Source: Aequorivita sp. (GTDB lineage: Bacteria > Bacteroidota > Bacteroidia > Flavobacteriales > Flavobacteriaceae). From it: 64,000 bases of DNA. A program made the translations under genes and the position numbers. Shown one piece after another: positions 8,290-24,491 of this stretch. The stretch's first letter is position 1; each line of letters begins with the position of its first letter. The notes below the pieces were generated by a model, which was given only the letters and a program-made list of their open reading frames with translations, did no database searches and was not told the DNA's origin. The stretch covers positions 62,001 to 126,000 of the forward strand of contig JAGXGE010000004.1 of NCBI GenBank assembly GCA_024637015.1, written 5' to 3'.

Positions 8290-8787
8290 TCAAGATATTT
8301 TAAAACTTGCTTTTTCATTTTCAGAAAAACTTTCAGATTTCAAAACAAAATTCTTAATCGTATCTTTCAATTCATTTGAAGTAACATTTGCATAATTCTT
8401 CAAAATAAACTGCTTGTCCTCCTCAATATTTTTATAGTAACCCAAAAACTTGGGCGAGTTTTCCTGCACACTCATACGGACATAACGAATTTCAATATTT
8501 GAAGGCTCAGCCTCTATGGCGCTTTCAATTAAGGAAACGCCTTCTTTGAAAAATTCTTTTTTATCATTTATCGATTTAGCAAATTTTGCCTTCAGCGTTG
8601 AAATCGCTCCTTTATAAGCCAATAAAACGGGCTTGCTTGAGGAACTTACTCCTGCAAGTTCTCCATCAAGTTTAGTAGCGATTTCAGAACTTTCCACTGC
8701 CTCTGTATATTCCGAACGGGTTTCGTTCAAGTCCTGGGCAGTCCCAGCAAAAGAGATGAAAAAAACTATAAATAATAAATATTTCAT
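8290..8787 (-). CDS. Secreted hypothetical protein of the pigment cluster
   Basis: 165 residues. A Sec signal peptide is clear: short basic start, hydrophobic core, and FAGTAQ cleavage region near residue 17, so the mature protein should be periplasmic. The rest is helical and charged with no motif I recognise. Its start overlaps the stop of the dehydratase-like gene by one base (TGATG), so it belongs to the same transcript. It is the last gene before the 124-base gap, so it probably ends the main pigment operon. The function is unknown; envelope assembly is possible from context only. Confidence 0.6.
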   Translation of the reverse strand: MKYLLFIVFFISFAGTAQDLNETRSEYTEAVESSEIATKLDGELAGVSSSSKPVLLAYKGAISTLKAKFAKSINDKKEFFKEGVSLIESAIEAEPSNIEIRYVRMSVQENSPKFLGYYKNIEEDKQFILKNYANVTSNELKDTIKNFVLKSESFSENEKASFKIS

Positions 8788-9155
8788 CAGTCAATAACTT
8801 TAAATGTAGCGCTAAGTTTCAAAGCTACAATATTTTCAAAAGAAGTTACGTTTTTCACTTTTACTTCGCCATTTTCTTGAGCTATATCAATAGCAATTTG
8901 CAAATCGGGATTTTTTTCAGGGTTAATAATCGCCATAAATTTTATGTTTGAAGAAACTGCCAAAAACAAATTTTTGCCCGTTGACTCCTCAGTCAGTTCC
9001 TTTATAATTTGAATCATACAAACACCAGGCATTACAGGATTACCAGGGAAATGACCTTTAAAAATTGCATGGTCTTTGTTTAAATGGACTTTTGAGAGAA
9101 TCCCTTCGGAAGTGTTTTCGGTTGAAGTAACTTTATATAATCCTTCGATAAGCAT
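8787..9155 (-). CDS. FabZ/FabA-like hotdog dehydratase homologue with His but without the catalytic Glu
   Basis: 122 residues, a single hotdog domain. GHFPGNPVMPGV at residues 34-45 is the FabZ signature with catalytic His35. Fourteen residues on, where FabZ carries its catalytic Glu, there is Gln49 (GVCMIQ). The half-site is thus incomplete. The two other hotdog genes of the cluster (20398-20856, 20856-21293) show the opposite pattern, so a mixed oligomer is likely (see findings). The expected role is dehydration of 3-hydroxyacyl-ACP during polyene growth. It lies one base after the downstream end of the lipoprotein gene and overlaps the next gene by one base. Confidence 0.75.
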   Translation of the reverse strand: MLIEGLYKVTSTENTSEGILSKVHLNKDHAIFKGHFPGNPVMPGVCMIQIIKELTEESTGKNLFLAVSSNIKFMAIINPEKNPDLQIAIDIAQENGEVKVKNVTSFENIVALKLSATFKVID

Positions 9156-9156
9156 A

Positions 9157-9783
9157 TTATTCCTTTTTAAATTTTTCCAAGTCTATGGTTAACTTGATAT
9201 TGTTGTGTTTGATGGCGATGATATCTGCAATATTATCTTCGGAAGAAATAAAATCAATCTCCAATTTCTCTTTTGTTTTTGTAGTGTTTATTATTTTTTT
9301 AAGCTTTTCAGACCTGTCTTCCAAAAAATAAAAATTGAATCTTTCATCAGATTGTGTTTTGTAAATTCTTTCATTTTTAGATTCATAAACTGCTAAAACC
9401 TCTGCGCTTTCGTTGACCAATAATTTGAAATCATCTTTTAAAATATTTACAATGAATTTTTTGTCTAAATCTTCTGCTATGAAATGTTTTGTGAAAGTAT
9501 CTCCTTCAAACTCAAAATCAAATAGCTTGCTGCCAAATTCGGTAGTAAAAACAACACGGTGATTTTCAGGACCAATTTTTTTTAAGATCAATATTCCTCC
9601 AAAATTTTTTCCGTAAACCTCAATCTTTGCTTTGTAAACATAATCTATTTCTGAATTCGAAAAATAAGGATTTTCAACCTCCACTTTGTTGAAATGCACT
9701 TGCCGCAATCCTTCCGTAGTCTTTAAGGAACACGAAGCCAATCCAAAAATTGACAGAAAACTAATTGCTAAAAATCGAATCAT
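9157..9783 (-). CDS. Lipoprotein of unknown function, possibly LolB-like
   Basis: 208 residues with a lipoprotein signal: hydrophobic core then GLASC, acylated Cys18. The mature part is rich in beta-strand patterns and lysine, with no catalytic motif. It overlaps the LolA-like gene by 23 bases (9761-9783), which suggests a paired role: LolA-like carrier in the periplasm and a lipid-receiving lipoprotein at the outer membrane. Aryl-polyene clusters commonly carry such a DUF3261/LolB-like lipoprotein; I cannot prove homology by eye. It probably helps insert the pigment into the outer membrane (inference). Confidence 0.6.
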   Translation of the reverse strand: MIRFLAISFLSIFGLASCSLKTTEGLRQVHFNKVEVENPYFSNSEIDYVYKAKIEVYGKNFGGILILKKIGPENHRVVFTTEFGSKLFDFEFEGDTFTKHFIAEDLDKKFIVNILKDDFKLLVNESAEVLAVYESKNERIYKTQSDERFNFYFLEDRSEKLKKIINTTKTKEKLEIDFISSEDNIADIIAIKHNNIKLTIDLEKFKKE

Positions 9784-10390
9784 TTACGGTGTTGTTTAAA
9801 ACGCGATCGCTAAAGATAATTTGTGTGAAGTCCTGCGATGGTTCTACCATTTTCACTTCATAAACCTGTGCATCATCTTTATTGAAAAGTAACTCAAACG
9901 ACGCTATGTAACCCGCTATTTTCTTGTCCTTCGGCACAAAAACCGCTTTGTTGTATTTTAAAGATTTGAAGAAATAAACGGTGAAATCGGCATCGTTGAA
10001 CATATTGCCTTTTACACTGTTTACTATAAGTTGGTTCAGTTTTTTGAAGAGTTTGCTGTTGCCGATATCCACTTTGCTTTTAGTTCCACCGTCATTAATC
10101 AGCAATTGATCTTCCTTAAAAATCACACTGTATTTGTACGGGTTTGTGTATTCCCATTTTACCAAATTAGGTGCTTTAAAAACCATTTTTCCGGAAGTTT
10201 TCACATCATCCGCCAAAAAAACGAGGTGCTTGTATTGCACAAAGTCTGTTTTGATAGTCTTGGTCGTTTTTGCCGTGGCAATTACCTTTTCTTTAAAAGA
10301 ATTAATTTCTGAAGCACTCATCGCAGTTTCCTGCGCCTGAATTGAGCTGCTAATAACAATTAAAAATAGCAATAGAAAATAATTACGCAT
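9761..10390 (-). CDS. LolA-type outer-membrane lipoprotein carrier protein
   Basis: 209 residues from ATG 10390. A longer frame exists upstream, but the signal peptide MRNYFLLLFLIV..IQA starts at this Met, and it overlaps the upstream deacetylase stop by only 8 bases. The mature protein has the LolA pattern: IKTDFVQYKHL, a GKMVFKAPNLVKWEY strand pair, and LLINDGG. LolA binds lipids in a hydrophobic cavity in the periplasm. As part of the pigment cluster it is probably specialised to carry the flexirubin-type lipid, or lipoproteins needed for it, to the outer membrane (inference). Confidence 0.85.
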   Translation of the reverse strand: MRNYFLLLFLIVISSSIQAQETAMSASEINSFKEKVIATAKTTKTIKTDFVQYKHLVFLADDVKTSGKMVFKAPNLVKWEYTNPYKYSVIFKEDQLLINDGGTKSKVDIGNSKLFKKLNQLIVNSVKGNMFNDADFTVYFFKSLKYNKAVFVPKDKKIAGYIASFELLFNKDDAQVYEVKMVEPSQDFTQIIFSDRVLNNTVNDSIFSN

Positions 10391-11159
10391 AGGCTTCAAT
10401 TTCAAGTAAGCGGTCCACTGGAACCGACTGCAATTTGTGCGGTTGCAAAAATAGCAATAACTGTTCCAATACGGCAACGGTTTTTGCACTGCTATCATGG
10501 AGCAAAATAATATCTCCCTTTTTCAAATTGGATGTAATCCGTTTCAAAATTTTTTCTTCGGAAAGGTTTGTCGTGTCCAGGCTGCGTTTGCTCCAGCCAA
10601 TTGAAAAATATCCCGTGTTTTTCAAAGCCTTTTTGATGTTTGGATTTGTCACTCCAAAAGGTGGACGGAAAAGTTTCAATTCCTTTCCAGTAATTTCTTT
10701 CAATATTGAATTTGTCTGTTTCAATTCAGCAGCAACTTTTTCCGTAGAAAAAAACCCGAAATTCTTGGAATGAGAAAACGAATGGCTGCCTATTGTGTGA
10801 CCTTCATTTATTATTTGCTGAACTAACTCAGGATACTTTTCAGCATTCTTTCCTATTAAAAAGAAAGTAGCTTTTGCGCCGTATTCTTTCAAAAGCGACA
10901 GAACTTTTGGTGTAAATTCTGGATTTGGCCCATCATCAAATGTGATTGAAATGTAATTTTCCGAAACTTTATAATTGTGATTCAAAGACTGAAGGTGATA
11001 GTTCCACCTAATCTGAAATGACCCAATTGCGGTAATCACAAACCAAATAAAAACAAAAAGAACATATAGCCAAGCTGGAACATCACCGAAGAAACCTGCG
11101 AGCAGTAGTCCAAAAAAAACTACTAACGCAAGGGCGTTTATGGTGTAAAACTTCAACAT
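10383..11159 (-). CDS. Membrane-anchored polysaccharide deacetylase (NodB-type)
   Basis: 258 residues from ATG 11159; the longer frame starts inside the previous gene. Two N-terminal hydrophobic segments (residues ~5-50) anchor it. The NodB domain follows: ITFDDGPNPEFT (metal Asp and catalytic Asp), HSFSH (two metal His) and LFRPPFG. These are the full catalytic motifs of carbohydrate esterase family 4. It overlaps the KS-like gene by 7 bases and LolA by 8. Why a deacetylase sits in a pigment cluster is unclear; such genes recur in flexirubin-type clusters. Substrate unknown. Confidence 0.85.
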   Translation of the reverse strand: MLKFYTINALALVVFFGLLLAGFFGDVPAWLYVLFVFIWFVITAIGSFQIRWNYHLQSLNHNYKVSENYISITFDDGPNPEFTPKVLSLLKEYGAKATFFLIGKNAEKYPELVQQIINEGHTIGSHSFSHSKNFGFFSTEKVAAELKQTNSILKEITGKELKLFRPPFGVTNPNIKKALKNTGYFSIGWSKRSLDTTNLSEEKILKRITSNLKKGDIILLHDSSAKTVAVLEQLLLFLQPHKLQSVPVDRLLEIEAYA

Positions 11160-12217
11160 TTTTTTAGTAAAACAAGGCTGTGATTTTGGCCACGGTATTG
11201 GTTGTAGCAAAGAGCCGTTTTAATTTCCGAAGTATTGATTTCGTTAAGTTTTACAATTTCCGGAATTGTTTGGGTTTTCAAAATTTTCGATGCCAACCAA
11301 ACACCAAAAGCGGAAACAGTATTGTTTTCACCAACCAAATGTTTGTAAAAAACCTGTTGGATTTTGTTAAAGATTCCTTCTGAAAGTTGCTGATAATAAT
11401 CGTCATAATCTACATCGCCATTGTTTCCAAAAACAACAACATCAATATCGCTTCTCATCAAGTTGTTTTCTTCCAAAAAGTTTTCAATGGTTTTGGAAAC
11501 CTTTTCTTTTATGAGGCTATTGAGTGTTTTCACAGCAACCAATTCAGCATAACAGCTTTGCTTTTTTTCGTTGGAAACAACAAAAAAATTGGCTCCTTCG
11601 CTGAAAACTGCACCTTCCGTTTTAGAGTTTAAAACTTCTGAAATACATACAGTATCAGGTTTTATGTGATTAATTACGCGGTGTACTTTTGTAGTATGTT
11701 CGCCTAATTCCTCTACGCCGCCCACCAAAATATGCTGGGCTTCATCAGTTTCGAGTTGCATTTTGGTGTCCAGCAAAGCAGATTCAAACGAAATAGCTGA
11801 ATGTACGTAGGTGAAATTATAAGCTTTGCACTCCATCCCCAATGCAATCTGTCCAGCAACTGTGTTATGTGTGCTTTGAATGAAAGATGTTGGCGTTAAA
11901 TATTGCTCGTTATTATCAATAATGGCGCTGACAAATTTTTCCGAATCAATCATACAGCCCATTCCAGTACCTGTGATGATGGCGTCAACTGTTTCAATTC
12001 CCGCTTCGTCCATTGCAATTTTGGAAGCAACCACGCCCATTTTTATTCCTTTTGCCATCCGGCGGGCGGCGGCGGGCGGAATGTATTGTTTGTAGTCTGG
12101 ATCTTGGGGAAAAATTACTGTGTCATTATAATCAGTAATTTCATCCAAAAACATACTATTATCATACGTTTTTTGAGGCGAAATGGAAGCGATGCTATTT
12201 ATGTATACCTTCTTCAT
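11153..12217 (-). CDS. Ketosynthase homologue lacking the active-site Cys (chain-length-factor-like)
   Basis: 354 residues from ATG 12217; the start overlaps the upstream KS stop by one base (TAATG). The overall pattern is a thiolase-fold KS, but the nucleophile region reads YVHSAISFES, with Ala141 where the paired KS has Cys161, and the usual HGTATG and GHT histidine motifs are not recognisable. It is directly coupled to an intact KS, the layout of a KSalpha/KSbeta (chain-length factor) pair in type II polyketide systems and in aryl-polyene synthases. It probably forms a heterodimer with the 12217-13419 product and sets polyene length (inference). Confidence 0.75.
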   Translation of the reverse strand: MKKVYINSIASISPQKTYDNSMFLDEITDYNDTVIFPQDPDYKQYIPPAAARRMAKGIKMGVVASKIAMDEAGIETVDAIITGTGMGCMIDSEKFVSAIIDNNEQYLTPTSFIQSTHNTVAGQIALGMECKAYNFTYVHSAISFESALLDTKMQLETDEAQHILVGGVEELGEHTTKVHRVINHIKPDTVCISEVLNSKTEGAVFSEGANFFVVSNEKKQSCYAELVAVKTLNSLIKEKVSKTIENFLEENNLMRSDIDVVVFGNNGDVDYDDYYQQLSEGIFNKIQQVFYKHLVGENNTVSAFGVWLASKILKTQTIPEIVKLNEINTSEIKTALCYNQYRGQNHSLVLLKKC

Positions 12218-13419
12218 TACGCTTCTTTTGAAAATATTACAGTAGAACAATTCCCTCCAAAACCAAGCGAATTTGAAAGCACTGTATTCAATTCTTTTTT
12301 CTTCAATTCCGTTTGCGGAATCATTGAAAACTCCTTCATCGGGGTTTTAAAATTCAGATTCGGGAAAATCACGTTGTGCTGCAATGCCAAAACAGAATAA
12401 ACTGCTTCAATGGCTCCAGCCGCGGCCAAAGTGTGCCCTGTGAATGCTTTTGTTGAGCTAAATTCCGGTAAATCTCCACCAAAAACGCGAAGTATCGCTC
12501 TGCCCTCCGAAAGGTCGTTATTGCCAGTGGCAGTCCCGTGCGCATTAATATAATCAATTTCCGAAGCTTTTAAATTAGCAGTTTTTAAGGCTTTTTCCAT
12601 TGCCAAAGTTGCTCCATCTCCATTATCTGAAGAAGCGGTTTGGTGAAAGGCATCGTTGGCATTGCCGTAGCCTTTTACGTATGCGAGAACTTTTTTGTTC
12701 TCAGCTTTAACAACTTCGTCACTTTCCAAAACCAAAAATGCAGCGGCTTCCCCCAAATTCAAACCTTTTCGGTTTTCGTCAAAAGGAGTGTTATAGGTAT
12801 CACTTAAAATCATCAATGTTTTGAACCCATTAATGGTGAATTTTGAAAGGCAATCAGCGCCGCCAACCAAAACGCGATCCAACTTTCCAGATTTTATTAA
12901 ACGCGCACCAAGCATAATTGCATTTGCTGCGGAAGAACAAGCGGTGCTAATTGTTGTTACCAAACTTTCTTCAATCCCCAATTGCTCAGCGATTTTCTGT
13001 GTGGAATCGCCCGCGTGGTGACTTTCAATATATTTTTGGTGTTCTTTTTCGGTAAGGTATTCGTAATAATATTTTTCGGTCATATCCATTCCGCCTACGC
13101 TGGTGCCAGAAACGATGCCGGTTTTGTATTTTTTTATATCGGTAATTCCTGCATCAGCAAATGCTTCTTTTGCGGCTATGGCGCCGAGCATTGCGGTACG
13201 GGAATAATTATTATCTGAAGGAAGGTTTAGTTGGGTAATCAATTCATCATTAGTGAATTTCACTTCACCCACCATAATTTCACTGCGCTGAACTGTTTCA
13301 ATATTGTCAACGCGGGTGATGCCTTTTTTTCCGTTTATAAGCGCCTCATAATTCTCCACTACATTGTTGCCAATGGCAGAAATAATACCCATTCCGGTTA
13401 TGGCTACGCCTTTACTCAT
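12217..13419 (-). CDS. Beta-ketoacyl-ACP synthase (FabF-type), active
   Basis: 400 residues. A full KASII active site is visible: Cys161 in STACSSA, His in INAHGTATG, and His in AFTGHTLAAAG. The glycine-rich C-terminus NSLGFGGN is present. It catalyses decarboxylative condensation of malonyl-ACP with the growing chain. It lies between an ACP gene (18 bases upstream) and the Cys-less KS, forming an ACP-KS-CLF block, so it is the best candidate for the main aryl-polyene elongating KS. Confidence 0.9.
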   Translation of the reverse strand: MSKGVAITGMGIISAIGNNVVENYEALINGKKGITRVDNIETVQRSEIMVGEVKFTNDELITQLNLPSDNNYSRTAMLGAIAAKEAFADAGITDIKKYKTGIVSGTSVGGMDMTEKYYYEYLTEKEHQKYIESHHAGDSTQKIAEQLGIEESLVTTISTACSSAANAIMLGARLIKSGKLDRVLVGGADCLSKFTINGFKTLMILSDTYNTPFDENRKGLNLGEAAAFLVLESDEVVKAENKKVLAYVKGYGNANDAFHQTASSDNGDGATLAMEKALKTANLKASEIDYINAHGTATGNNDLSEGRAILRVFGGDLPEFSSTKAFTGHTLAAAGAIEAVYSVLALQHNVIFPNLNFKTPMKEFSMIPQTELKKKELNTVLSNSLGFGGNCSTVIFSKEA

Positions 13420-13437
13420 AAAGTTTTATTTCGGAAA

Positions 13438-13695
13438 TTACTTCGTGCGGTGCTCTTCAATATAATCTGCCATTACCTGTACAGATTCAAAAATCTTACG
13501 TCCTTCTTTTGGGTCGCTCAAGCGGATGCCGTAATCTTTATCAAGCATCACGATAAGTTCCAATGCATCAATGGAATCCAAGCCTAGACCGTCGCCAAAA
13601 AGTGCATCGTCGTCTGCAATCTCGGCAACTGAAACATCTTCGAGATTTAATTGTTCAATGATTTTTTCTTTCAATTCTTGTTTTAAGTCGCTCAT
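13438..13695 (-). CDS. Acyl carrier protein (polyene-type)
   Basis: 85 residues, acidic, four-helix ACP pattern with the phosphopantetheine attachment serine in GLDSIDALEL (Ser41). It lacks a signal and is cytoplasmic. It starts with an ATGA overlap with the upstream KS-like gene and is followed by the KS/CLF pair, so it probably carries the aryl-polyene intermediates. It differs from the second ACP of the cluster (24247-24489), suggesting separate acyl chains are built on each (inference). Confidence 0.9.
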   Translation of the reverse strand: MSDLKQELKEKIIEQLNLEDVSVAEIADDDALFGDGLGLDSIDALELIVMLDKDYGIRLSDPKEGRKIFESVQVMADYIEEHRTK

Positions 13696-14309
13696 AATGT
13701 TTTGTATAATCTGGTTATTTCTTCAGTGTTGTGTACAATTTCACCTTCATTTTCAACTAAATAAAGAAAAGCCTCATAACTGTTTTTATCAAAATCTACC
13801 CAGCCACAGAGAACTTTTTCGGCCTTCCCCCTTCGCAACAAATTATTGGCATACAATTGCAAATGCTCTGCATTAAAGCGGTCAAAGATAAAAAAACTAT
13901 TTTCAGAATACAGTCTGTGTTTGATACTTATCTCGCCTAAACAAATATTTGGGAGTGTGTAAACAAAAACCGCCGGACTAGGGAAGTATTCAGCTTCATT
14001 CTCTATAGCCGCTTGATGTTTCCGGTCTGTGTCCAAACTGGAAGCTTTGTTTGAAAATATGAGTGCAATGTTGTTTTCTTCTTCGTTCAGGTTTTCATCT
14101 TTCAACAATACATCTGCCGCCAAAAAAGCGAGTTTGCTTAGGTTATCCATTTTGAAAAACTTGGGATATCCCGTTTTCAAAAACTTGTAAGCATTTTTGA
14201 TAAATATTGAAAAATCTTCAGATTCCTCTCTATAAATAGTTTGGCCGTTAACTGAAACAGTTTGGTTTTTAATGTGGCTATAACTCTTTATGTGAAAAAT
14301 TTCAGACAA
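13692..14309 (-). CDS. Short, Cys-less ketosynthase-like protein (N-terminal half only)
   Basis: About 205 residues if it starts at TTG 14309, just after the methyltransferase stop; no ATG is suitably placed and the frame continues upstream into the methyltransferase gene, so the start is uncertain. The sequence resembles the N-terminal half of a KS: a FSNKASSLDTD segment, then SPAVFVYTLPNICLGEIS. The nucleophile region reads ENSFFIFDRF with no Cys, and there is no HGTAT or GHT motif. It cannot condense on its own. It may be a structural partner of a KS or ACP. Such short 3-oxoacyl-ACP synthase-like genes are known in flexirubin-type clusters; function unknown. Confidence 0.6.
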   Translation of the reverse strand: MSEIFHIKSYSHIKNQTVSVNGQTIYREESEDFSIFIKNAYKFLKTGYPKFFKMDNLSKLAFLAADVLLKDENLNEEENNIALIFSNKASSLDTDRKHQAAIENEAEYFPSPAVFVYTLPNICLGEISIKHRLYSENSFFIFDRFNAEHLQLYANNLLRRGKAEKVLCGWVDFDKNSYEAFLYLVENEGEIVHNTEEITRLYKTL

Positions 14310-14313
14310 AATT

Positions 14314-15381
14314 TTACTTCTTTTTGCAGACCAACATCGTGTGATATTCACCCAATTGGATGTCCTTGTGTAATTGCAAACCTGCTTTATCAATCAATTT
14401 TAAAAAAACACTAGCTGGATACATTTTGCTATTTCCGTTTGCAAGCACAGTAAAATAAAGCGATGTTGCCTCCAAAATAAATTGTGTTGATTTAAAATGC
14501 TGTCTATCGGTGAAGGTTTCCACAATAATCAATTCAGCATTTCCACCCATAGAATCTGCACAAGTGCTTAACACTTTCACTATTTCATCTTCGGAAAAAC
14601 AATCCAAAAATTGGCACATCCAAATTACATCTGCTCCTTTTGGAATTTGCGGATTTTCAGAAAGCCAATCAATAGGATAACCAGAAATTCTGTGTTTAAA
14701 ACCATTGCTCTCTGCATTTTTCAATGCAATATTCAACTGGCCAGGCAAATCGATTATTTTCACATCCACATCCTCATTGAAACTACAGCATTTTACAGAA
14801 AATTTACCGGTGTTCCCTCCAATATCAAAAAGCGTCTTTGGTTTTCTTTCAAATATTTTTTCGAGTGCATCTTCAAAAATACCGTCAGAATAATGATGGT
14901 CAAAATCAAACCAGGATTTTTGTTCTGCGGGTTTTAACTGGGAAAGCCCTTCATAAATAGTTGACCAATGCCCTAGTTCTTTAAGTCCTTCAGGTTTACC
15001 GGTTTTGATAGAATCATTTAAATAGAACAAACCTTTGTAACAAACATCGTGCGTGAAGTTTAGGTTTACACTTGCGGTAGTATTGTAGTTGAGAAAATAG
15101 CCAACTTTGGTCAATTCAAATTTATTGTCAATATTTTTGCTTACAATATTTGATGTTTCAGCAATTTCTAACAAAACTCCAACTCCATAAGGACTTAGTG
15201 AAAGTTTTTTGGAAATCTCGTCAACTGTAGGGCCACCAGCGTCACGTTGGTCAAAAATATAATCGAGTATTCCAAGTTTCCGGAGCGATACCGAAGCTTG
15301 GAAAACAAAGGGCGCAAAAGCAATCCGATGCGCTTCTTCCAAAGCCTCAATAGCGTTCATTTTTTTAGTGGTTGTTTGCAT
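14314..15381 (-). CDS. SAM-dependent methyltransferase (O-methyltransferase family 2-like)
   Basis: 355 residues. An N-terminal winged-helix dimerisation region (residues ~10-110; FVFQASVSLRKLGILD, LSLSPYGVGVLLE) precedes a Rossmann methyltransferase with motif I LFDIGGNTGKFS near residue 190, a DLPGQL acidic strand and VIWMCQFLDCF. This layout is that of plant-type and hydroxyneurosporene O-methyltransferases. It lies one base after the KS gene at 15382. In flexirubin-type pigments the aryl ring or chain can be methylated, so ring methylation is plausible (inference). C- versus O-methylation cannot be decided from the sequence. Confidence 0.8.
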   Translation of the reverse strand: MQTTTKKMNAIEALEEAHRIAFAPFVFQASVSLRKLGILDYIFDQRDAGGPTVDEISKKLSLSPYGVGVLLEIAETSNIVSKNIDNKFELTKVGYFLNYNTTASVNLNFTHDVCYKGLFYLNDSIKTGKPEGLKELGHWSTIYEGLSQLKPAEQKSWFDFDHHYSDGIFEDALEKIFERKPKTLFDIGGNTGKFSVKCCSFNEDVDVKIIDLPGQLNIALKNAESNGFKHRISGYPIDWLSENPQIPKGADVIWMCQFLDCFSEDEIVKVLSTCADSMGGNAELIIVETFTDRQHFKSTQFILEATSLYFTVLANGNSKMYPASVFLKLIDKAGLQLHKDIQLGEYHTMLVCKKK

Positions 15382-16539
15382 TTATGGTTGGTTAGTTGTT
15401 CTTTTTTTTAAAATTACCGCAGTGTTGCAACCTCCAAAACCCGAGGCCGTTTTTAAAAATGTATGCAAGTTTGTCGGTATATTTCTTTTGATGATATTTA
15501 TATTTTTTGAAACGCCAAGTTCGGAAAATCCTTTGGATGAAAAAAGTATATTTTTTTCCATAGAATGCATCCCCACAATGGTTTCCAGCAAACCCGAAGC
15601 ACCCAAAGTATGGCCAAAAAATCCTTTTAAACTGTTTAATGGCACATGTTCCATTCCCAATCTGCTGAAAGCAATGGCCTCCATTTCATCATTAAAAGGA
15701 GTCGCGGTACCGTGTGCAGAAATATAATCGATTTCCCCAGAAGTAATATTTGCTTCATTCAGAGCAGCTTTCACACTGCGGAAAAGTCCTTCGCCTGTTC
15801 GTGATGGACCGGAAATATGGTTAGCATCATTTCGAGTTGCATCGCCTAAAATTTCCATAGCTTCCTTTGGAAAATTTTCTGTGGAAGAGGTAACCAAAAC
15901 ACTCGCCGCCACTTCCCCGAGGTTAATCCCAATCCTATTTTTATCATAAGGTTTACAGGGCTCTGCCGATAAAGCTTGAAATGAATTGAAGCCTGAAAGA
16001 ATAAATTTTGTAACCAAATCACCACTCGTTATAAAAACGTGATCATATTTTCCTTCAGAAATGAAGCGTTTTGCAACGGAAATAGCCATAACTCCAGAAA
16101 CACAAGCATTTGAAAGCACAATCGGTTCATTTTTAAAACCAAAGAAATTTTGAATTATTTTTCCCAATTCACTCAAATAAGCGCGACTTTCAGAGAAATT
16201 ACTGTCTTCTTCAAGTATGTCGATATTACCTTTTGTAGTTGAAATTACCAGACCTACTTTTTCATTCAAAGGAGTATTTGAAGCATCGACAACCTTTTTC
16301 AACGAAAGAATCATCATTTGCTCTAGCTTCGTAAACTTTGAAGCATCTCCAATTTTATTGAATTCATCCTCTATTTTTTTTGAAGAAATTAGGGAAGCGC
16401 AAAAAGGTTCGGGCAATAGCGAAGCGTCTTCATATCTATCAAGACCCGACACACCTTTCGAAATATTTTCGACAACCGATTCGCTGTCAAAGCCCAAACT
16501 GCTGAAAATATTGTTATATGAAAGATATGTTTTTGCCAT
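15382..16539 (-). CDS. Beta-ketoacyl-ACP synthase (second active FabF-type KS)
   Basis: 385 residues from ATG 16539, 4 bases after the thioesterase stop; the longer frame begins inside that gene. Active-site residues: Cys146 in SNACVSGV, His in SAHGTATPFND, His in GFFGHTLGASG. The glycine-rich end reads ASGFGGCN. It is shorter and more diverged than the KS at 12217, and no CLF follows it. It could perform the first condensation on the aryl starter or serve the resorcinol chains; the sequence alone cannot choose. Confidence 0.85.
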   Translation of the reverse strand: MAKTYLSYNNIFSSLGFDSESVVENISKGVSGLDRYEDASLLPEPFCASLISSKKIEDEFNKIGDASKFTKLEQMMILSLKKVVDASNTPLNEKVGLVISTTKGNIDILEEDSNFSESRAYLSELGKIIQNFFGFKNEPIVLSNACVSGVMAISVAKRFISEGKYDHVFITSGDLVTKFILSGFNSFQALSAEPCKPYDKNRIGINLGEVAASVLVTSSTENFPKEAMEILGDATRNDANHISGPSRTGEGLFRSVKAALNEANITSGEIDYISAHGTATPFNDEMEAIAFSRLGMEHVPLNSLKGFFGHTLGASGLLETIVGMHSMEKNILFSSKGFSELGVSKNINIIKRNIPTNLHTFLKTASGFGGCNTAVILKKRTTNQP

Positions 16540-16543
16540 TTTT

Positions 16544-16972
16544 TTAAAGCTCCATTTTATCTTTCCATTTTGCAAAAAACTCTGGTGGAGTCAATGAAAG
16601 ATCGCCTTCTTCGTTCAAAAAAACCTGGATGGTTTCACCCAAACAGGCAAGCCTTCCTTTTGGGTCAAAAATTCGATAACGAAAAATCATTTTCGCCGCG
16701 GGAGAATTTATAAAGTTAGTTTTAATAGTTGCCACATCGCCATAACGCAACGGTAGCTTATGTTCGCAGGAAGATTTCACAATTGGGGAAGTATATCCAT
16801 TCGCTTTCTGTTCCAAATATGAAATACCATGCTCACGACCGAAAGCCTCGCGGCCATCCTCAAAATATTGGATATAGTTGCCGTGCCACACAATTCCCAA
16901 GGGATCTGTCTCGGTGAAACGTACACGAATTTCAGAAGTAAAACTTATTTCTTTTTTGTTGTCAGACAGCAT
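16544..16972 (-). CDS. 4HBT-type acyl-CoA/acyl-ACP thioesterase
   Basis: 142 residues, single hotdog. FTETDPLGIVWHGNY near residue 20 is the 4-hydroxybenzoyl-CoA thioesterase signature, with the catalytic Asp in TDPLGIV. It overlaps the ABC permease gene by 11 bases. It should hydrolyse an acyl thioester, either to release a chain or as an editing enzyme for stalled ACPs. Aryl-polyene clusters regularly include one. Confidence 0.85.
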   Translation of the reverse strand: MLSDNKKEISFTSEIRVRFTETDPLGIVWHGNYIQYFEDGREAFGREHGISYLEQKANGYTSPIVKSSCEHKLPLRYGDVATIKTNFINSPAAKMIFRYRIFDPKGRLACLGETIQVFLNEEGDLSLTPPEFFAKWKDKMEL

Positions 16973-18230
16973 TTTCTCTTTTGTTATATATTATTGCTAT
17001 TATGATTGTTACAAGGAAAAACAACAATAATAACGAAATTTCGGGAAGGATTTTAGCAAAACCCACATTTCTTAAAAATACGTCGTAAAAAGCTTCCAAG
17101 CCCCAATTCATTGGGGATATTTTGGAAACTAATTGCATAAATTTCGGCATTACAAAAACGGGAACCCAAACCCCACCAAGTGCAGCCAAAATAACAACCG
17201 AAGTGGCTCCAAACGGAGCAGCCTGCTCTTGTGTCTTTGCGATGGTTCCCATAAGCAATCCCAAACCTATAGCAGCCAAACCAGAGAAAAGTGCGACAAT
17301 ATAAAGCATCGTCAATTTCCCTGAAACATCAACTCCCGGAAGGCCTATAGCCGGAAAAAGATAAATGCCAACAAGCAACATCAACGTAAATTGTATCAAG
17401 CAAACACCCAAATAAACAATGGTTTTTCCGCTCAAAACTGTTGCATAACTCACTGGATTAGTCCGCAGACGCACAAAAGTTCCCTGATTTTTTTCCTTCA
17501 CCAAATTGATGGAAAGAGGAACAATAATAAAGAAAATAGCAAACAGCGTCCATGCCGGAACGTTATGCTGTGCTGAATTTGGGATGATTTCTTCATTGTT
17601 TTTTGTGGGAAGAATTTCTTTGAAGGCAATAAAATTTTCTGTGTCGAAAATTGGTTTTTCATCTTCATCGCCCAATTCCGTTTGAAAAGCTTTGTAAATA
17701 CTTTGTGTTTCAATTTTTGAAATCATTTTCTCGATGCCGTTCTTCACCGAAGATTTGAAACTAACTTGCGTGGCGGGATCAAAATACAAACGGACTTCTT
17801 TTTGCGGAATAACTTCTTTTGCAACGTTCAATGAATCTTCTTCTAGTCCAAATTTTGATAAAATACCTTCAACGTTTTGGTCAACTTTCTTTTGAAGTGA
17901 AGTGGAAAGGTTTTCCGGAATTACAATGGCAAGCTGATATTTACCTGAGAAAACCGCTTCTTTTGCTTCTTCTTCCGAAGATTTCTGAAGAATTTCAAAC
18001 GAATTCGAGTCGGATAGATTTTCAATGATATTTTTTGAAACTTCGCCTTTGTCATTATCAACCAAAAGCACAGGAATTTTAATATCACTGATGGTTTTGA
18101 AGGTACTGTCCTGCACCAAAGTGATAACAATCAACAGTAAAATTGGCATTATAAAAAGAATAGCTATTCCGCCCAAATCTCTCAGCAGCAAAAGCATTTC
18201 TTTATATGTGGAGGCCCAGAGTTTATGCAT
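16962..18230 (-). CDS. ABC-2 type exporter permease
   Basis: 422 residues from ATG 18230 (8-base overlap with the ATPase gene stop; an earlier in-frame Met would overlap 23 bases). One N-terminal membrane helix (~residues 17-40) is followed by a large extracytoplasmic domain (~40-215) and about five helices in the C-terminal half, the ABC2_membrane_3 layout. It pairs with the ATPase just upstream. It probably exports the pigment or a precursor from the inner membrane (inference). Confidence 0.85.
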   Translation of the reverse strand: MHKLWASTYKEMLLLLRDLGGIAILFIMPILLLIVITLVQDSTFKTISDIKIPVLLVDNDKGEVSKNIIENLSDSNSFEILQKSSEEEAKEAVFSGKYQLAIVIPENLSTSLQKKVDQNVEGILSKFGLEEDSLNVAKEVIPQKEVRLYFDPATQVSFKSSVKNGIEKMISKIETQSIYKAFQTELGDEDEKPIFDTENFIAFKEILPTKNNEEIIPNSAQHNVPAWTLFAIFFIIVPLSINLVKEKNQGTFVRLRTNPVSYATVLSGKTIVYLGVCLIQFTLMLLVGIYLFPAIGLPGVDVSGKLTMLYIVALFSGLAAIGLGLLMGTIAKTQEQAAPFGATSVVILAALGGVWVPVFVMPKFMQLVSKISPMNWGLEAFYDVFLRNVGFAKILPEISLLLLFFLVTIIIAIIYNKRENAV

Positions 18231-18966
18231 AATCGCGAAGGGCATTTCCAGTTTGTGCTAAAAACACATCCTCAAGATTGTTGGCTCCAGTTTGGTTTTT
18301 TATCAATTCTGAAGGAATGCCTTTTATAATAATTTTACCACGATCGATTATCGCAACGTGTGTACAGAAAAATTCGGCTTCGTTCAAATGGTGTGAAGTA
18401 TAAACGATTGTAGTTCCTTGCTTATTGAGTAATTTTAAATAATCTATTATTACGTTTTTAGATTGTACGTCAACACCTACTGTTGGTTCGTCTAGAAATA
18501 AAACTTTTGGTTCATGAAGTATCCCAGCAATCAAGTTTACACGGCGCTTCATTCCGCCAGAAAAAGTGTCTGTTTTTTTATGGGCAAATTTTGAAAGCCC
18601 CATAACTTCGAGATGCTTGTTGATGGATTTTTTAAGAATTTCACCTTTAATTCCATACATACTTCCGAAGTATTGTAAATTTTCAAAAGCGGTGAGCGTT
18701 GGATACAATGCATATTCCTGCGGCACGATACCAATTAGTTGTTTTAATTGGTTTTTGTTTTCCTTAAAATTCAATCCGTTGATTGTGAAAGAGCCAGAAG
18801 TTGGTTTCAGTAAGGAAGTCAACATTGAAATCAGCGTGGTTTTTCCTGCACCGTTTGGACCGAGCAAGCCGTAAATTTCACCATCTTCAACTTTCAAATT
18901 AAGGTCTTTTACCGAAAAATCTTCGGCGCCTTTGTATTTTTTTGAAAGTTGGTTTATTTCTATCAT
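18223..18966 (-). CDS. ABC transporter ATP-binding protein
   Basis: 247 residues. Walker A GPNGAGKTTL (~res 37), Q-loop near IVPQEYAL, signature FSGGMKRR, Walker B VLFLDEPTVGVD and the H-loop (TSHHLNEAE) are all intact. It is directly coupled to the ABC-2 permease, forming a complete exporter. It lies 32 bases downstream of the BtrH-like gene. Confidence 0.92.
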   Translation of the reverse strand: MIEINQLSKKYKGAEDFSVKDLNLKVEDGEIYGLLGPNGAGKTTLISMLTSLLKPTSGSFTINGLNFKENKNQLKQLIGIVPQEYALYPTLTAFENLQYFGSMYGIKGEILKKSINKHLEVMGLSKFAHKKTDTFSGGMKRRVNLIAGILHEPKVLFLDEPTVGVDVQSKNVIIDYLKLLNKQGTTIVYTSHHLNEAEFFCTHVAIIDRGKIIIKGIPSELIKNQTGANNLEDVFLAQTGNALRDYA

Positions 18967-18998
18967 TGTCCTCCTAAATTCCCTGAAAGAGGAACTTT

Positions 18999-19994
18999 TT
19001 AAATTGCTTTTTTCAACTTCTTAAAAAACACCTTTTCCAAATTGGCAATATGGTCTAATTGATCCGCCACTTTGTTATAGCTATCTGTTTGTGCGCTACG
19101 GTTTTTATATATTCTTGATGCTTCAAGGGCAAAATCGCGCCATAAGTCACCTATTTCGGTCATTTCTTTTGAAAGTTCGATTAATTTATCATTACCAAGT
19201 AATTTTCCAGCTTCCTGTAAAAATGCCGCGTAAATATATCGAAAACCTCCACCACCAGTTCCTATTTCTTCTTGCATCCGTACCACTTGTCCCAAATAAT
19301 GGTTGGCAGTTTTAATGCCTTTTTTTTTCGGCCATTTACGGATAAGTTTTGCAATTTTATGAATACCCTTTACTCCAACAAATGAAACCGGCGCTAGCAT
19401 TGCCTTACAAGTATCTTTGATTCCTTTTACAATTGCTTTTTCAAGCTCCATTTTTTCTGGAAAAGCGATTGGATAATACATATGCCCTTTGGGAGCAAAA
19501 GCGCCTTTTGCAAAACGTACTTTTTCCAATTCTTTTTCAGAAAGAGAAGTAACGTTTTCCATCACCGGATCACTGATTAAATAACGATTGCCTTCTTTCC
19601 CATAAACCACCATATTGTGGGCATTGAAATGGAAACGATATTCATCAGGAAAATACACCAAGTTGTAAACTCCAACCTGTAACCCAACAGGATTATCTTT
19701 CTCAAGATTTTCATCCAATCTCGCTTTTGCATCTTTTGGATTTCTGAACTTTTCACGTTTCATTTTTACGCCTGTGCGCTTGGCGAATTTCTTAAAAATA
19801 TGTCCAGGTAATGCGCGATAGGTAATCACTGGCGCGTGATTTACTTTCAACAAAGGAATATAGCAAAACAACAAGCCACTACCTATACCAAAAACCATAG
19901 GCTCACTAACGCTGAAGCCGTTGTGTTTCATCAAATTTGAAACTACACCGTTTTCGCAATGTGCAGATTGGTGGTGGGTAAAGTCTATTTCCAT
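18999..19994 (-). CDS. BtrH-like (butirosin acyltransferase-type) cysteine protein, with DUF4872-like C-terminus
   Basis: 331 residues. The N-terminal half matches the BtrH_N pattern: Cys13 in SAHCENGV, His126 in FNAHNMVV and Asp142 in YLISDP, in papain-like Cys-His-Asp order. The C-terminal ~130 residues are helical (QEEIGTGGGGFRYIYAAFLQEAG), as in DUF4872. BtrH in butirosin synthesis moves an acyl group from an ACP to a small-molecule acceptor. In this cluster the matching reaction would be moving the aryl-polyene acid from ACP to the hydroxyl of the dialkylresorcinol. That assignment is my inference. The gene starts at the stop of the next upstream gene (one-base overlap). Confidence 0.75.
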   Translation of the reverse strand: MEIDFTHHQSAHCENGVVSNLMKHNGFSVSEPMVFGIGSGLLFCYIPLLKVNHAPVITYRALPGHIFKKFAKRTGVKMKREKFRNPKDAKARLDENLEKDNPVGLQVGVYNLVYFPDEYRFHFNAHNMVVYGKEGNRYLISDPVMENVTSLSEKELEKVRFAKGAFAPKGHMYYPIAFPEKMELEKAIVKGIKDTCKAMLAPVSFVGVKGIHKIAKLIRKWPKKKGIKTANHYLGQVVRMQEEIGTGGGGFRYIYAAFLQEAGKLLGNDKLIELSKEMTEIGDLWRDFALEASRIYKNRSAQTDSYNKVADQLDHIANLEKVFFKKLKKAI

Positions 19995-20395
19995 TATTTT
20001 GAAATGTTCTGAAGTTCTTCAACTGAAATCTCAAAAACCTCAGCGTATTTATTCAACGTTTTGTGGCTTAATTTTTTAAAAACTGAAGGTTTAAAGTGTC
20101 GTTTCACTTTCCATTGCCAAAAACTAACGTAGCTCGCCAAAATACCAACGTCCATTTTGTGGAGTTCCATATAATATTCAATAGGGCTTGTTTGGCCTGC
20201 AATTACACGGTTTTTTGCGCCTTCAATACGCTCGTTGATTTCTTCAATTGCGTTATTTAAAGCTACGGTTTTTGGTTCCCATCCACTGCTATTTTCAGTG
20301 ACATACTCACCATTTTCGTCAACGGCGTAACACAATTCACGAAAATTTGCGGATTCCAGATTGCTTTTGTCCTGTGGCACTTCTTTTTTCTTCAT
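19994..20395 (-). CDS. Conserved-looking small cytoplasmic protein of unknown function
   Basis: 133 residues with no signal peptide. It is helical and charged: ALNNAIEEINERIEG, then a more hydrophobic centre (VGILASYVSFWQWKVKRH) and a C-terminal HKTLNKYAEVFEISVEELQ segment resembling a small helix-turn-helix but not clearly DNA-binding. It is two bases after the hotdog gene and overlaps the BtrH-like gene by one base. Tight coupling to BtrH suggests a partner protein. No family recognised. Confidence 0.55.
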   Translation of the reverse strand: MKKKEVPQDKSNLESANFRELCYAVDENGEYVTENSSGWEPKTVALNNAIEEINERIEGAKNRVIAGQTSPIEYYMELHKMDVGILASYVSFWQWKVKRHFKPSVFKKLSHKTLNKYAEVFEISVEELQNISK

Positions 20396-20397
20396 AA

Positions 20398-20856
20398 TCA
20401 GACTTCATGGATTAAAAAATTCATGGTAGAAGATACAATTAATTTTTCAGCAAGGAATGTTTCAGTTTCGAGACTGCACATTGTCATTTCGCCGGTATCA
20501 AATCGTGAAAGAAGTTTTGCCTTTGTAACAATAGTTTCACCAACATTTGGAAGCTGAAAAATCTCCACTTTTTTGACAGCACTAATATAACCAACCAGTT
20601 TATTGCCAGTTCCCTCCAAATCATCCTTTTCAAAAAAACTTTGTCCCACAACACCAGAAGCGGCTTGTGCAGCATTCTCAATAAGTCCAGTTTCAGAAAG
20701 TTTTCCGGCTTTTAAAAACACACATTTTTCAGAAATATAAAATTGGGTTGAAACTGAATTTTCGTCAATTTCAAGTACCGAAGTAACCATCAACATCGGT
20801 TCACGGTGTGGCAAAAAGTTGGAAATATCGATATTTGAAATGTTAGGCGCTTTCAT
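20398..20856 (-). CDS. Hotdog dehydratase homologue (ApeP-like), Glu present, catalytic His absent
   Basis: 152 residues. FLPHREPMLMV near residue 14 matches the opening of FabA/FabZ-type dehydratases, and LIENAAQAASG holds a Glu (residue 60) at the FabZ catalytic Glu position. The GHFPG segment with the catalytic His is missing; CVFLKAGKLSETG stands in its place. It overlaps the next hotdog gene by one base, so the two are probably made in equal amounts. It probably works as a subunit of a mixed 3-hydroxyacyl-ACP dehydratase, as known for aryl-polyene ApeI/ApeP pairs. Confidence 0.7.
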   Translation of the reverse strand: MKAPNISNIDISNFLPHREPMLMVTSVLEIDENSVSTQFYISEKCVFLKAGKLSETGLIENAAQAASGVVGQSFFEKDDLEGTGNKLVGYISAVKKVEIFQLPNVGETIVTKAKLLSRFDTGEMTMCSLETETFLAEKLIVSSTMNFLIHEV

Positions 20857-21293
20857 TAAGTGGCCAATACAGTTTTCATTTCACTGACAGCGATTATTTT
20901 TCCATCACATTCGGTTTCAGCCGACACTAAGGTAACACCCATAATATCGTGCAGAATACTTACCGTTGTTTTAAGTTCTTTTCCTATGGAAGGAAGTTCA
21001 AAGATTTCTGCTTTTTTAATGGCGCCAATGTAGCCTGTTGGAGCATCTTCCTTTTTCAGAAAAAATTGGTAGCCCGTATAAAGTGCCACCGTTTGCGCCA
21101 TATGCTCAATCAAGCCGGGGCCAGTAAATTTATTGTTTTTGGTAAAAATATTTTCTTCGGAAATAGTCAGTCCTGCAACCACTCTTTTTTCCTCAAAATG
21201 AAGTAGTTTATCCACCATCACAAACGGTGCTTTCTGCGGAATCAATTTTCCGATGAAATCTTTGTCCGTTATTTTTTCGGTGAATACATCCAT
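20856..21293 (-). CDS. Hotdog dehydratase homologue, Glu present, catalytic His absent
   Basis: 145 residues. LIPQKAPFVMVDKLL (residues ~17-31) and GPGLIEHMAQT (Glu63) match the FabZ fold and catalytic Glu region; there is no GHFPG His. It is a diverged paralogue of the adjacent 20398-20856 product (both carry YIGAIKKAEIF / YISAVKKVEIF). It directly follows darB by sequence order with no gap. It probably takes part in the same mixed dehydratase, or in dehydration for the resorcinol alkyl chain (inference). Confidence 0.7.
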   Translation of the reverse strand: MDVFTEKITDKDFIGKLIPQKAPFVMVDKLLHFEEKRVVAGLTISEENIFTKNNKFTGPGLIEHMAQTVALYTGYQFFLKKEDAPTGYIGAIKKAEIFELPSIGKELKTTVSILHDIMGVTLVSAETECDGKIIAVSEMKTVLAT

Positions 21294-22427
21294 TTAAACT
21301 ACTGTCAAATATGCATACGAATATGCGAAACGAGCGCTTTCGGGCACCTGAAGAAATATTTTGTCGCCTTTTTTAAGTTTTCCAGAATGAGCTAATTCTT
21401 CTAACATAAGATAGATGGAACCCGCTCCAACATTCCCAACCTTTTGAAGGTTCAGAAACCATTTTTCCCATGGTAAGTGAAGGCCTTGGCGTTCAATTTC
21501 ATTGTAAAGATTTTCCTTGAAATAATAGGAAGAAATATGTGGCAAGTAGTAATCTATATCGTCCTCGGTAATGTTGTGTTTCTCCATTGCCAACTTCATA
21601 CTTGCAACACCTTTTTCGAGGATGTTTTCACCTAGCAATTTCACATCTTGTTTCATTGCAAAAAGTGATTTTTTCCCCCAAACATCAGCGGGATATTCAC
21701 TCCAAGGTTTTAAGCTACCGTCCTCAAGTTTATCACCACCGGCGTACATACAAGTTTCCAGTTCAAAAGCGTAACTGTAGCCTTCCATCCATTCAATTTT
21801 TAATGGTGTATTACCATTTGGCTCACTTTCCAAAAGCATTGCTCCTGCTCCGTCGGAAAGCATCCAACGTAAAAATTCTTTATTAAAAGCAAGAATGGGA
21901 TGTTCTTCAATTTCCCGCAAATGTGCTACTTCGTCTTCAAAAATATCAGACCTCATCCAAGAAGAAGTTCGCTCAGAACCTGTACAAACAGCGTTATTTA
22001 CTTGGTCAGATTTTATGGCCATATAGCCGTATTTCAGAGCATTCATTCCACTGCAACAAGCACCGGAAGGAGAATTTATTTCTAGATTTCCATTCTTTAA
22101 AAAGCCATGTACCATTGCGGCGTGGCTGGGCAATATCTGGTCTGGACTGGAAGTACCACAGGATAGCAATTCAATTTCGTTTTTATTGAAAGTTTCATCA
22201 CACAACCCTTCAACTGCTTTTGCAGCAAGTTGTGCGTTGTTGTGGGTTACATTTCCATCTTTATCAATGGCGTAATAACGAGTTTTTATTTGATTGTTTC
22301 GAAGGATAATGCGGCGGGCTTTTGAAGTTTTCCCGTTGATAACCCCAAGTTTTTCCTCCATCGCCTCATTGTCTACAGGCTCATTGGGCAAAAACTTCGC
22401 AATCCTTGTTATATATACATTCTTCAT
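21294..22427 (-). CDS. darB: DarB: KASIII-like ketosynthase/cyclase for dialkylresorcinol
   Basis: 377 residues. KASIII-type triad visible: Cys125 in GACCSGMN, His in YYLPHISS, Asn in KVGNVGAGS. It is longer than FabH and lies directly next to DarA, the paired arrangement that defines dialkylresorcinol clusters. DarB joins two beta-ketoacyl units and cyclises them to a cyclohexanedione, which DarA then aromatises. Its start overlaps the darA stop by one base. It is cytoplasmic. Confidence 0.9.
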   Translation of the reverse strand: MKNVYITRIAKFLPNEPVDNEAMEEKLGVINGKTSKARRIILRNNQIKTRYYAIDKDGNVTHNNAQLAAKAVEGLCDETFNKNEIELLSCGTSSPDQILPSHAAMVHGFLKNGNLEINSPSGACCSGMNALKYGYMAIKSDQVNNAVCTGSERTSSWMRSDIFEDEVAHLREIEEHPILAFNKEFLRWMLSDGAGAMLLESEPNGNTPLKIEWMEGYSYAFELETCMYAGGDKLEDGSLKPWSEYPADVWGKKSLFAMKQDVKLLGENILEKGVASMKLAMEKHNITEDDIDYYLPHISSYYFKENLYNEIERQGLHLPWEKWFLNLQKVGNVGAGSIYLMLEELAHSGKLKKGDKIFLQVPESARFAYSYAYLTVV

Positions 22428-23344
22428 TAATCTTGCTTTAATGCAACTGATGAATAATAGGCTTTATCCCGCTGTATTTTACGATACATTGGAAAATAAG
22501 TGAGCAAAAATACAACAAATACTATTGGCGCTATTAGCCATATTGCAAATAACAAATAATATTTAAAAAAAACGAGCCATTTGCTTCTTTCTTCGCCTTC
22601 TTTTTTAATTAAATGGTTGGCCCATTTTGTGAAAACAACATTACCCCGAATATCTGTGGCAATGAGTGAAGGATCTACTTTTACAGCACCAATATCCAAA
22701 AGATTTTGTTGCAGATTTGAATATTCATTTTGAAATAAAGCCTCTTTAATTGGAGCTCCAAAACGTGAAGACGCTTCAATATCATAATCCGAAACACCAG
22801 GTTTTGGAAAAATACCGAGCATTTTAGTTTTCTTTCCGCCCATCAACCAATGCACGATTGTTATTACACTGATGTGGTTCAGATTTCTGTCGACTAAAGC
22901 AATATTCCCAACCAATTTTGCATTGTTTGCAACCAGCAATTTTTTCATTTTTTCCTGCGCCATAATCCACATATTTCGGCTGGCTGATACTGTGACGACG
23001 GGTGTTTTGGCCAATAAAGTTTTTGCTTCCTCAGATTTTAAAAATGAATTGATTGGGATTGACGGGGTTAAGTACCAAGTGGTGTAGCCTAAAACTACTA
23101 AATCGTATTTTTTCTGAAGAATTTCAGCGGGAATTACTTCCAAAGGAGTTGGAATTTGAAGAAAGGTTTCCGGAAAAGCTCCATAAAATTCTTCCTGTTT
23201 CCAGGGAAAGGGAAATTTTTTCTTCGGAATAATTTCACAATAAGATATATTCACGTTTTCACCTGAAACCGTTGAAACAATATTTTTCAGAATATCAAAA
23301 AGTTGTCCTGTTTGTGAATAGTATATTACTAGTACTTCCTTCAT
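22427..23344 (-). CDS. darA: DarA: dialkylresorcinol aromatase, flavodoxin-like with C-terminal membrane segment
   Basis: 305 residues. The N-terminus is flavodoxin-like (VIYYSQTGQLFDIL, the phosphate-binding loop). Near residue 255 there is one strongly hydrophobic stretch (LLFAIWLIAPIVFVVFLL) followed by basic residues, so the enzyme is probably anchored to the inner membrane. DarA oxidises the cyclohexanedione made by DarB to a 2,5-dialkylresorcinol. It lies 3 bases after the acyltransferase gene. Confidence 0.88.
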   Translation of the reverse strand: MKEVLVIYYSQTGQLFDILKNIVSTVSGENVNISYCEIIPKKKFPFPWKQEEFYGAFPETFLQIPTPLEVIPAEILQKKYDLVVLGYTTWYLTPSIPINSFLKSEEAKTLLAKTPVVTVSASRNMWIMAQEKMKKLLVANNAKLVGNIALVDRNLNHISVITIVHWLMGGKKTKMLGIFPKPGVSDYDIEASSRFGAPIKEALFQNEYSNLQQNLLDIGAVKVDPSLIATDIRGNVVFTKWANHLIKKEGEERSKWLVFFKYYLLFAIWLIAPIVFVVFLLTYFPMYRKIQRDKAYYSSVALKQD

Positions 23345-24489: not shown

Positions 24490-24491
24490 TT

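Follow-up and report, generated by a model that had tools for sequence, protein, structure and literature searches.

Complementary halves of the FabZ dyad on separate hotdog proteins of an Aequorivita flexirubin-type gene cluster suggest a split-site polyene dehydratase

Both subunits of a dimeric hotdog enzyme contribute residues to the active site, and the dyad of FabZ is Glu-His (PMC2698920). In mycobacteria, HadB is shared by HadA or HadC, the partner shifting chain-length preference, and the catalytic residues lie in HadB, with none in HadA or HadC (PMC11321319). ApeI/ApeP is described as a dehydratase heterodimer that has one active site (PMC8041823), and PDB entry 6QSR bears the title of the dehydratase heterocomplex ApeI:P from Xenorhabdus doucetiae. 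The split-site principle is already in print for ApeI/ApeP, and the original 6QSR paper may already describe a shared dyad. Among flexirubin producers, the laboratory strain Flavobacterium johnsoniae UW101 is known to make no flexirubin once darB is lost (PMC3992019). The flexirubin cluster of Chitinophaga pinensis (flx) names two dehydratases, FlxF and FlxS, whose catalytic residues or pairing are not discussed in the available part of PMC3992019, and a partial literature search found no paper linking flexirubin with a split or heterodimeric dehydratase. Here we examined a stretch of 64,000 nucleotides from Aequorivita sp. (GCA_024637015.1, JAGXGE010000004.1, positions 62,001 to 126,000 of the forward strand), hereafter the window, which lies on contig C15 of a 3.2-Mb genome. 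A flexirubin-type cluster occupies about 1-30 kb of the window, mainly on the minus strand, and encodes three hotdog chains, here called subunits A, B and C, that divide the FabZ dyad among them.

8787-9155, minus strand: subunit A, an ApeI-like hotdog protein of 122 amino acids (list of open reading frames, ORFs; above the cut-off of the FabA-like Pfam model PF07977)
20856-21293, minus strand: subunit C, a Glu-bearing hotdog protein of 145 amino acids (ORF list, residue counts)
20398-20856, minus strand: subunit B, a second Glu-bearing hotdog protein of 152 amino acids (ORF list, residue counts)

The original prediction, made from these letters, had given the coordinates of the three ORFs, had read His35 and Gln49 in A, Glu60 in B and Glu63 in C, and had proposed that each chain alone lacks half of the FabZ dyad. 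Coordinates and residues all proved correct, and the three ORFs are on the minus strand. Subunit A carries the GHFPG motif with His35, followed by PGVCMIQ with Gln49 where FabZ has Glu, and Glu53 lies one helical turn on. In C, Glu63 stands within GLIEHMAQ, and in B, Glu60 stands within GLIENAAQ; each is followed four residues on by a Gln (Gln67 and Gln64, respectively), giving the ExxxQ of the FabZ helix.

Homologues were collected from 79 relatives and 247 genomes of the class, with missing regions fetched and ORFs assigned by profile. Before residues were counted, we left out A fragments at contig ends (G258, G042), C fragments (G127, G293), the C of G316 and ORFs longer than 300 amino acids, which are LpxC-FabZ fusions, and merged duplicates of one genome. 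His35 was kept in 81 of 81 A homologues, and the acid at position 49 was lost in 77 (Gln in 71, Arg in 3, Lys in 2 and His in 1, with Glu in the other 4). Glu63 and Gln67 were present in all 78 C homologues, as were Glu60 and Gln64 in all 36 B-type proteins. The GHF motif occurred in none of these C and B-type proteins; some His does lie within the 20 residues before the Glu in 14 of the 36 B-type and 19 of the 78 C proteins, at scattered positions. Only five columns were invariant across the A rows (H35, F36, P37, P43 and P79) and only four across the C rows (P23, E63, A66 and Q67). Because the catalytic His and Glu belong to these few invariant columns of their families, the split pattern is more than chance would give. 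Each of the families A, C and B thus keeps one dyad residue without exception and has for the most part given up the other, and the complementarity first noticed in one genome is general among the homologues.

The candidate explanation that the three ORFs are chance reading frames was rejected, as they are conserved across many genera with ratios of nonsynonymous to synonymous substitution (dN/dS) of 0.07 to 0.09. Set against Glu63-x-x-x-Gln67 of C, A has Gln49-x-x-x-Glu53, as if the two FabZ helix residues had changed places; positions 49 and 53 are Q/E in 57 of the 81 A proteins and Q/D in 11.

We propose that the polyene dehydratase is probably an A:C heterodimer with one shared site, B most likely replacing C on A. 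His35 of A and Glu63 of C would meet across the hotdog dimer interface to form one complete FabZ-type site, and this site would dehydrate the 3-hydroxyacyl-ACP (ACP, acyl carrier protein) in every polyene elongation cycle. The mirror-image pocket, made of Gln49 of A and the His-less loop of C, would be dead. We observed the complementary residues, their conservation, the co-occurrence of the genes, and the fold of A with its best structural match; from these we infer dimer formation, the shared site, the reaction, and the partner and substrate of B.

The same residues could be read in another way: A would act on its own as a homodimeric dehydratase, its acid shifted from position 49 to Glu53, and B and C would have other roles. 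Of the 81 A proteins, 77 have Glu or Asp at position 53, and all have the invariant His35; PDB entry 3ESI contains four chains of one ApeI-like sequence, so that self-crystallisation is possible, although 3ESI has Asp at the acid position. However, four A proteins (G315, G086, G130 and G246) have no acid at either 49 or 53, and each of these genomes also has a C with its Glu. A homodimer of A would moreover leave the invariant Glu of C unexplained, and we regard it as highly unlikely.

A search of the genome itself with PF07977 found three places: an LpxC-FabZ fusion, a 149-amino-acid protein on contig C21, and A. It missed B and C, both too diverged for that model. The fusion and the 149-amino-acid protein each hold His and Glu in one chain, and a housekeeping FabZ might then carry out the dehydration with A as a helper, leaving B and C, which lack the His, as non-catalytic scaffolds or substrate-binding chains. 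Yet all 114 B and C proteins retain the Glu and the Gln four residues on, whereas the position matching the Glu is variable in A. FabZ-type frames of about 470 amino acids are also found in many genomes without A, and FabZ is therefore not tied to the cluster. We consider this explanation of B and C very unlikely indeed. The gene for the 149-amino-acid FabZ-like protein (contig C21, about 20.8-21.1 kb) adjoins ketosynthase-like and reductase-like ORFs, and this is a second fatty-acid or polyketide-like locus of the genome.

Among the 247 genomes of the class, 48 had both A and C, 3 had A alone, 3 had C alone and 193 had neither. For this table the fragments of C in G127 and G293 were scored as C, and six rows with weak FabZ-like matches (G116, G149, G188, G233, G259 and G304) were excluded. 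The Fisher p value of this co-occurrence is about 1e-43, a figure that ignores shared ancestry. Of the six discordant genomes, five have a completeness of 78% or less. The joint presence of A and C does not depend on linkage. The two genes are adjacent in G184; they share a contig in G223 at 188.7 and 857.1 kb (668 kb apart) and in G164 at 841.9 and 1320.1 kb (478 kb apart). In G223, G253, G302, G215, G246, G119 and G201, C lies beside the gene for the ketosynthase DarB; A is then on a different contig, except in G223, where it is distant on the same one. The separation of about 11 kb, to which the original prediction had drawn attention, is ordinary in view of the neighbouring genes of G184 and the distance in G223. 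One 1.8-Mb genome (G072) has A together with LolA, glycosyltransferase and MMPL-like genes; no C, B or DarB was found in it, and the contig ends soon after.

ApeI/ApeP had been suggested as the parallel for these chains, and 6QSR and PMC8041823 support it as the right comparison. We examined eight proteobacterial ApeI/ApeP pairs, from Escherichia coli CFT073 and 7 of 24 proteobacterial plasmid-collection records. ApeP kept the Glu and had no GHF in 8 of 8, and ApeI kept the His in 8 of 8. The acid position of ApeI was Asp in seven (E. coli, Klebsiella, Moellerella, Pseudoalteromonas, Cupriavidus, Caballeronia and Burkholderia) and Gly in the ApeH-I fusion of Acinetobacter. Asp was likewise found in 6qsr_A and 3esi, and Gln in a relative from Aureispira (Bacteroidota). 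The parallel needs one correction, a proteobacterial ApeI being usually not a half-dyad chain. Since seven of the eight ApeI proteins have Asp there and 77 of the 81 A proteins have no acid, the acidic residue of a His-bearing chain looks like the remnant of a second, dead site; of the two, the flexirubin version is the stricter split.

An AlphaFold2 single-chain model of A, made from 43 rows, was a confident hotdog (predicted local distance difference test, pLDDT, 94.0); its central helix (44-59) carries residue 49, and the loop preceding that helix carries His35. Its first match in the PDB was 6qsr_A (Z 15.9, root-mean-square deviation 1.9 Å, 111 residues), with near-ties, within 1 Z, from 8ayd, an anammox FabZ (15.5), and 3esi (15.4). 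The closest named matches of protein A were from Aequorivita species, Flavobacteriaceae. The profile of C gave a weak match to 6qsr_B (E 0.0036), FabZ chains scoring better, and the single-chain model of C, made from 2 rows, supports the fold only. With the FabZ model TIGR01750, A, B and C scored 33.7, 22.5 and 36.8 bits, none reaching the cut-off of 155.15. A:C is most likely a Bacteroidota counterpart of ApeI:ApeP; A would work like ApeI though it stands outside the Pfam ApeI-like family.

Several observations weigh against the A:C heterodimer and its kinship with ApeI:ApeP. Subunit A scored 23.6 bits with the Pfam ApeI-like model PF22818, short of the cut-off of 28.5, and is for this reason not filed in that family; by sequence profile, 3esi (E 5.6e-6) and anammox FabZ (5.7e-6) both came slightly ahead of 6qsr_A (4.9e-5). 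Neither B nor C had a Pfam match at E 0.001, and B had none at 0.1 either. The model of C was poor (pLDDT 62.7) and matched FabZ chains (Z 17.1) better than 6qsr_B (Z 14.3), and in the tree C and proteobacterial ApeP were not joined to the exclusion of FabZ, the FabZ branch being very long. Gln49 is kept in 71 of 81 A proteins, which is more than an entirely idle position would need, and the four A proteins that retain Glu49 are in principle possible homodimers. One discordant genome, G131 (98% complete), has C but lacks A. The co-occurrence of A and C itself argues for a common pathway, not for pairing, because any two genes of one pathway co-occur. Finally, the E. coli dehydratases are given as "ApeI and/or ApeP", and a heterodimer is not assumed (PMC8253772).

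Next to the genes for B and C in the window lie those for DarB and a DarA-like protein.

21294-22427, minus strand: DarB, dialkylresorcinol-forming ketosynthase (NCBIfam NF053539, 670 bits against a cut-off of 550)
22427-23344, minus strand: DarA-like protein (flavodoxin match weak and below cut-off; named from its position beside DarB, by the gene order in PMC3949708)

Taken strictly, B came from 34 genomes, every one of them in the order of the window (Flavobacteriales), and its gene adjoins DarB in 34 of 34 loci. Two Flavobacteriaceae genomes, G026 and G040, have A and C with neither B nor DarB. In a tree of 88 rows, from which 18 genomes of the genus were left out for B and C, B formed one clade (100/99) and the C of the order another (95/95); these separate clades indicate that B is old and was inherited alongside C. 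The single-copy proteins of G089 and G234 fall outside this B clade, although the B profile scored them slightly higher. Across 22 genomes of the genus, the median pairwise dN/dS was 0.072 for A, 0.093 for B and 0.068 for C, values that are rough, as dS was high (about 1.0-1.2) and saturated or very-low-dS pairs were skipped, 197 to 215 of 231 being used. B is a paralogue of C still under selection and is not decaying.

Two further candidate views of B were set aside. That it is a decaying copy does not fit the dN/dS of 0.093, and B and C as equal candidates were rejected because B is confined to the window's order apart from G089 and G234. All three subunits of the original prediction thus exist, but they are not of equal standing: A and C are class-wide, and B is a paralogue of the window's order. 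One genome outside that order, G101, has two tandem C-type Glu subunits beside DarB, possibly an independent duplication; the placement of the second copy in the tree is unsure.

Seven genomes (G026, G040, G184, G216, G234, G303 and G247) have A and a single Glu subunit and no DarB at E 1e-40, which indicates that A, together with one Glu subunit, is part of the polyene branch of the pathway; the single Glu subunit of G234 is B-type by a small profile margin. The helix position of A is not kept acidic, and the fixed Glu of B is for this reason best read as catalytic. A catalytic Glu in B would require a His donor, and only A has GHFPG in the cluster. B may be an alternative partner of A. By analogy with shared-subunit dehydratases, A could be a His subunit common to interchangeable C and B, giving two split-site dehydratases, A:C and A:B, that differ in substrate or chain length, a scheme we hold to be a live possibility somewhat short of even. 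In clusters with dialkylresorcinol genes, B would most likely replace C on A, and this second dehydratase A:B would have arisen along with the island of dialkylresorcinol genes in Flavobacteriales. A:B could be the source of an enoyl thioester, should DarB-type enzymes require one.

The position of the B gene also fits a different role, in which A:C stands as proposed but B does not join A: it would pair only with C, tuning or stabilising A:C, or would act for the dialkylresorcinol enzymes. In the window, TAATG holds both the stop codon of C and, overlapping it, the start codon of B; B stands beside DarB at all of its loci, and it is missing from the two genomes of the order that have A and C without DarB. 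A B:C dimer would nevertheless hold two Glu and no GHFPG His, yet Glu60 of B is kept in every B-type protein. We treat such a role for B as a tentative possibility, clearly below even.

The other genes of the cluster include ketosynthases (KS), chain-length-factor-like (CLF-like) proteins and ACPs.

11153-16575, minus strand: polyene elongation genes, six ORFs, as in the next six lines
11153-12250, minus strand: KS-like/CLF-like protein
12217-13419, minus strand: KS
13438-13695, minus strand: ACP (sequence reading)
13692-14393, minus strand: short KS-like protein (weak match)
14314-15381, minus strand: methyltransferase (sequence reading)
15382-16575, minus strand: KS
16544-16972, minus strand: 4HBT/YbgC-type thioesterase, fourth hotdog protein of the cluster (family matches)
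16962-20395, minus strand: rest of the dialkylresorcinol island, an ABC transporter pair (named by sequence reading) and two ORFs, as in the next two lines
18999-19994, minus strand: BtrH-like protein (BtrH_N and DUF4872 matches)
19994-20395, minus strand: 133-amino-acid protein
24247-24504, minus strand: ACP (sequence reading)
24492-25712, minus strand: KS (family match)
25725-26477, minus strand: ketoreductase (family match)
27748-29274, minus strand: aromatic amino-acid lyase, the expected flexirubin starter-forming enzyme (PF00221, 551 bits)

The thioesterase is not FabZ-type and is no part of the dehydratase. Family searches revealed that LolA and an MMPL-acyltransferase fusion are also encoded in the cluster, together with a Trp_halogenase-like flavoprotein on the plus strand. 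The hallmarks of flexirubin and dialkylresorcinol loci were all present (DarB, aromatic amino-acid lyase, ketosynthases, ketoreductase, LolA and MMPL exporter), and a flexirubin-type pigment, an aryl polyene plus a dialkylresorcinol, appears to be the best explanation of the cluster product. The order of the dialkylresorcinol genes in the window is like that of the Azoarcus dar genes tabulated in PMC3949708.

By eye, 11153-16575 holds two KS/CLF-like couples side by side, each CLF-like chain near a complete ketosynthase, and the KS-like proteins of 365 and 233 amino acids in this group lack the catalytic Cys motif that is customary. Counting the KS at 24492-25712 as well, there are three complete KS and two CLF-like chains. 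The segment 16962-23344, comprising the ABC pair, the BtrH-like protein, the 133-amino-acid protein, DarB and DarA, resembles an island between thioesterase and acyltransferase; in G026 and G040, thioesterase and acyltransferase directly flank C.

If the A:C proposal is true, it would explain the seemingly defective dehydratases of flexirubin clusters, and it would give a residue-level rule for annotation, namely to seek the partner chain and not a complete dyad. It would also suggest a route by which a FabZ-type enzyme passes from two symmetric sites to one obligate shared site, as the acid of the His chain is Asp in most of the proteobacterial ApeI proteins examined, whereas most members of the Bacteroidota family have lost it. 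Having B as an additional Glu subunit would make partner-swapping in a type II polyketide dehydratase testable via colony colour in a laboratory strain.

Compared with described systems, A, B and C share with the FabZ/FabA homodimers the hotdog fold, the GHFPG His loop and the ExxxQ helix, but a FabZ chain holds both dyad residues, whereas the chains here hold one each. The mycobacterial HadAB/HadBC enzymes offer a model for A with B or C, as one hotdog chain with two alternative partners; those chains are, however, of MaoC type with catalysis in the shared chain, whereas here the dyad is divided between A and B or C. The likeness to ApeI:ApeP lies in the two different hotdog chains, with the GHF His only in the ApeI-type chain and the Glu in the GHF-less ApeP-type chain, in the type II polyene cluster that houses both systems, and in 6qsr_A as best match of the A model. 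In contrast to ApeI:ApeP, A is without the acid and below the Pfam ApeI-like cut-off, C is only remotely ApeP-like, and there is an extra subunit. What goes beyond the known ApeI:ApeP system is the loss of the acid in A and the conserved second Glu subunit, B, beside DarB in Flavobacteriales.

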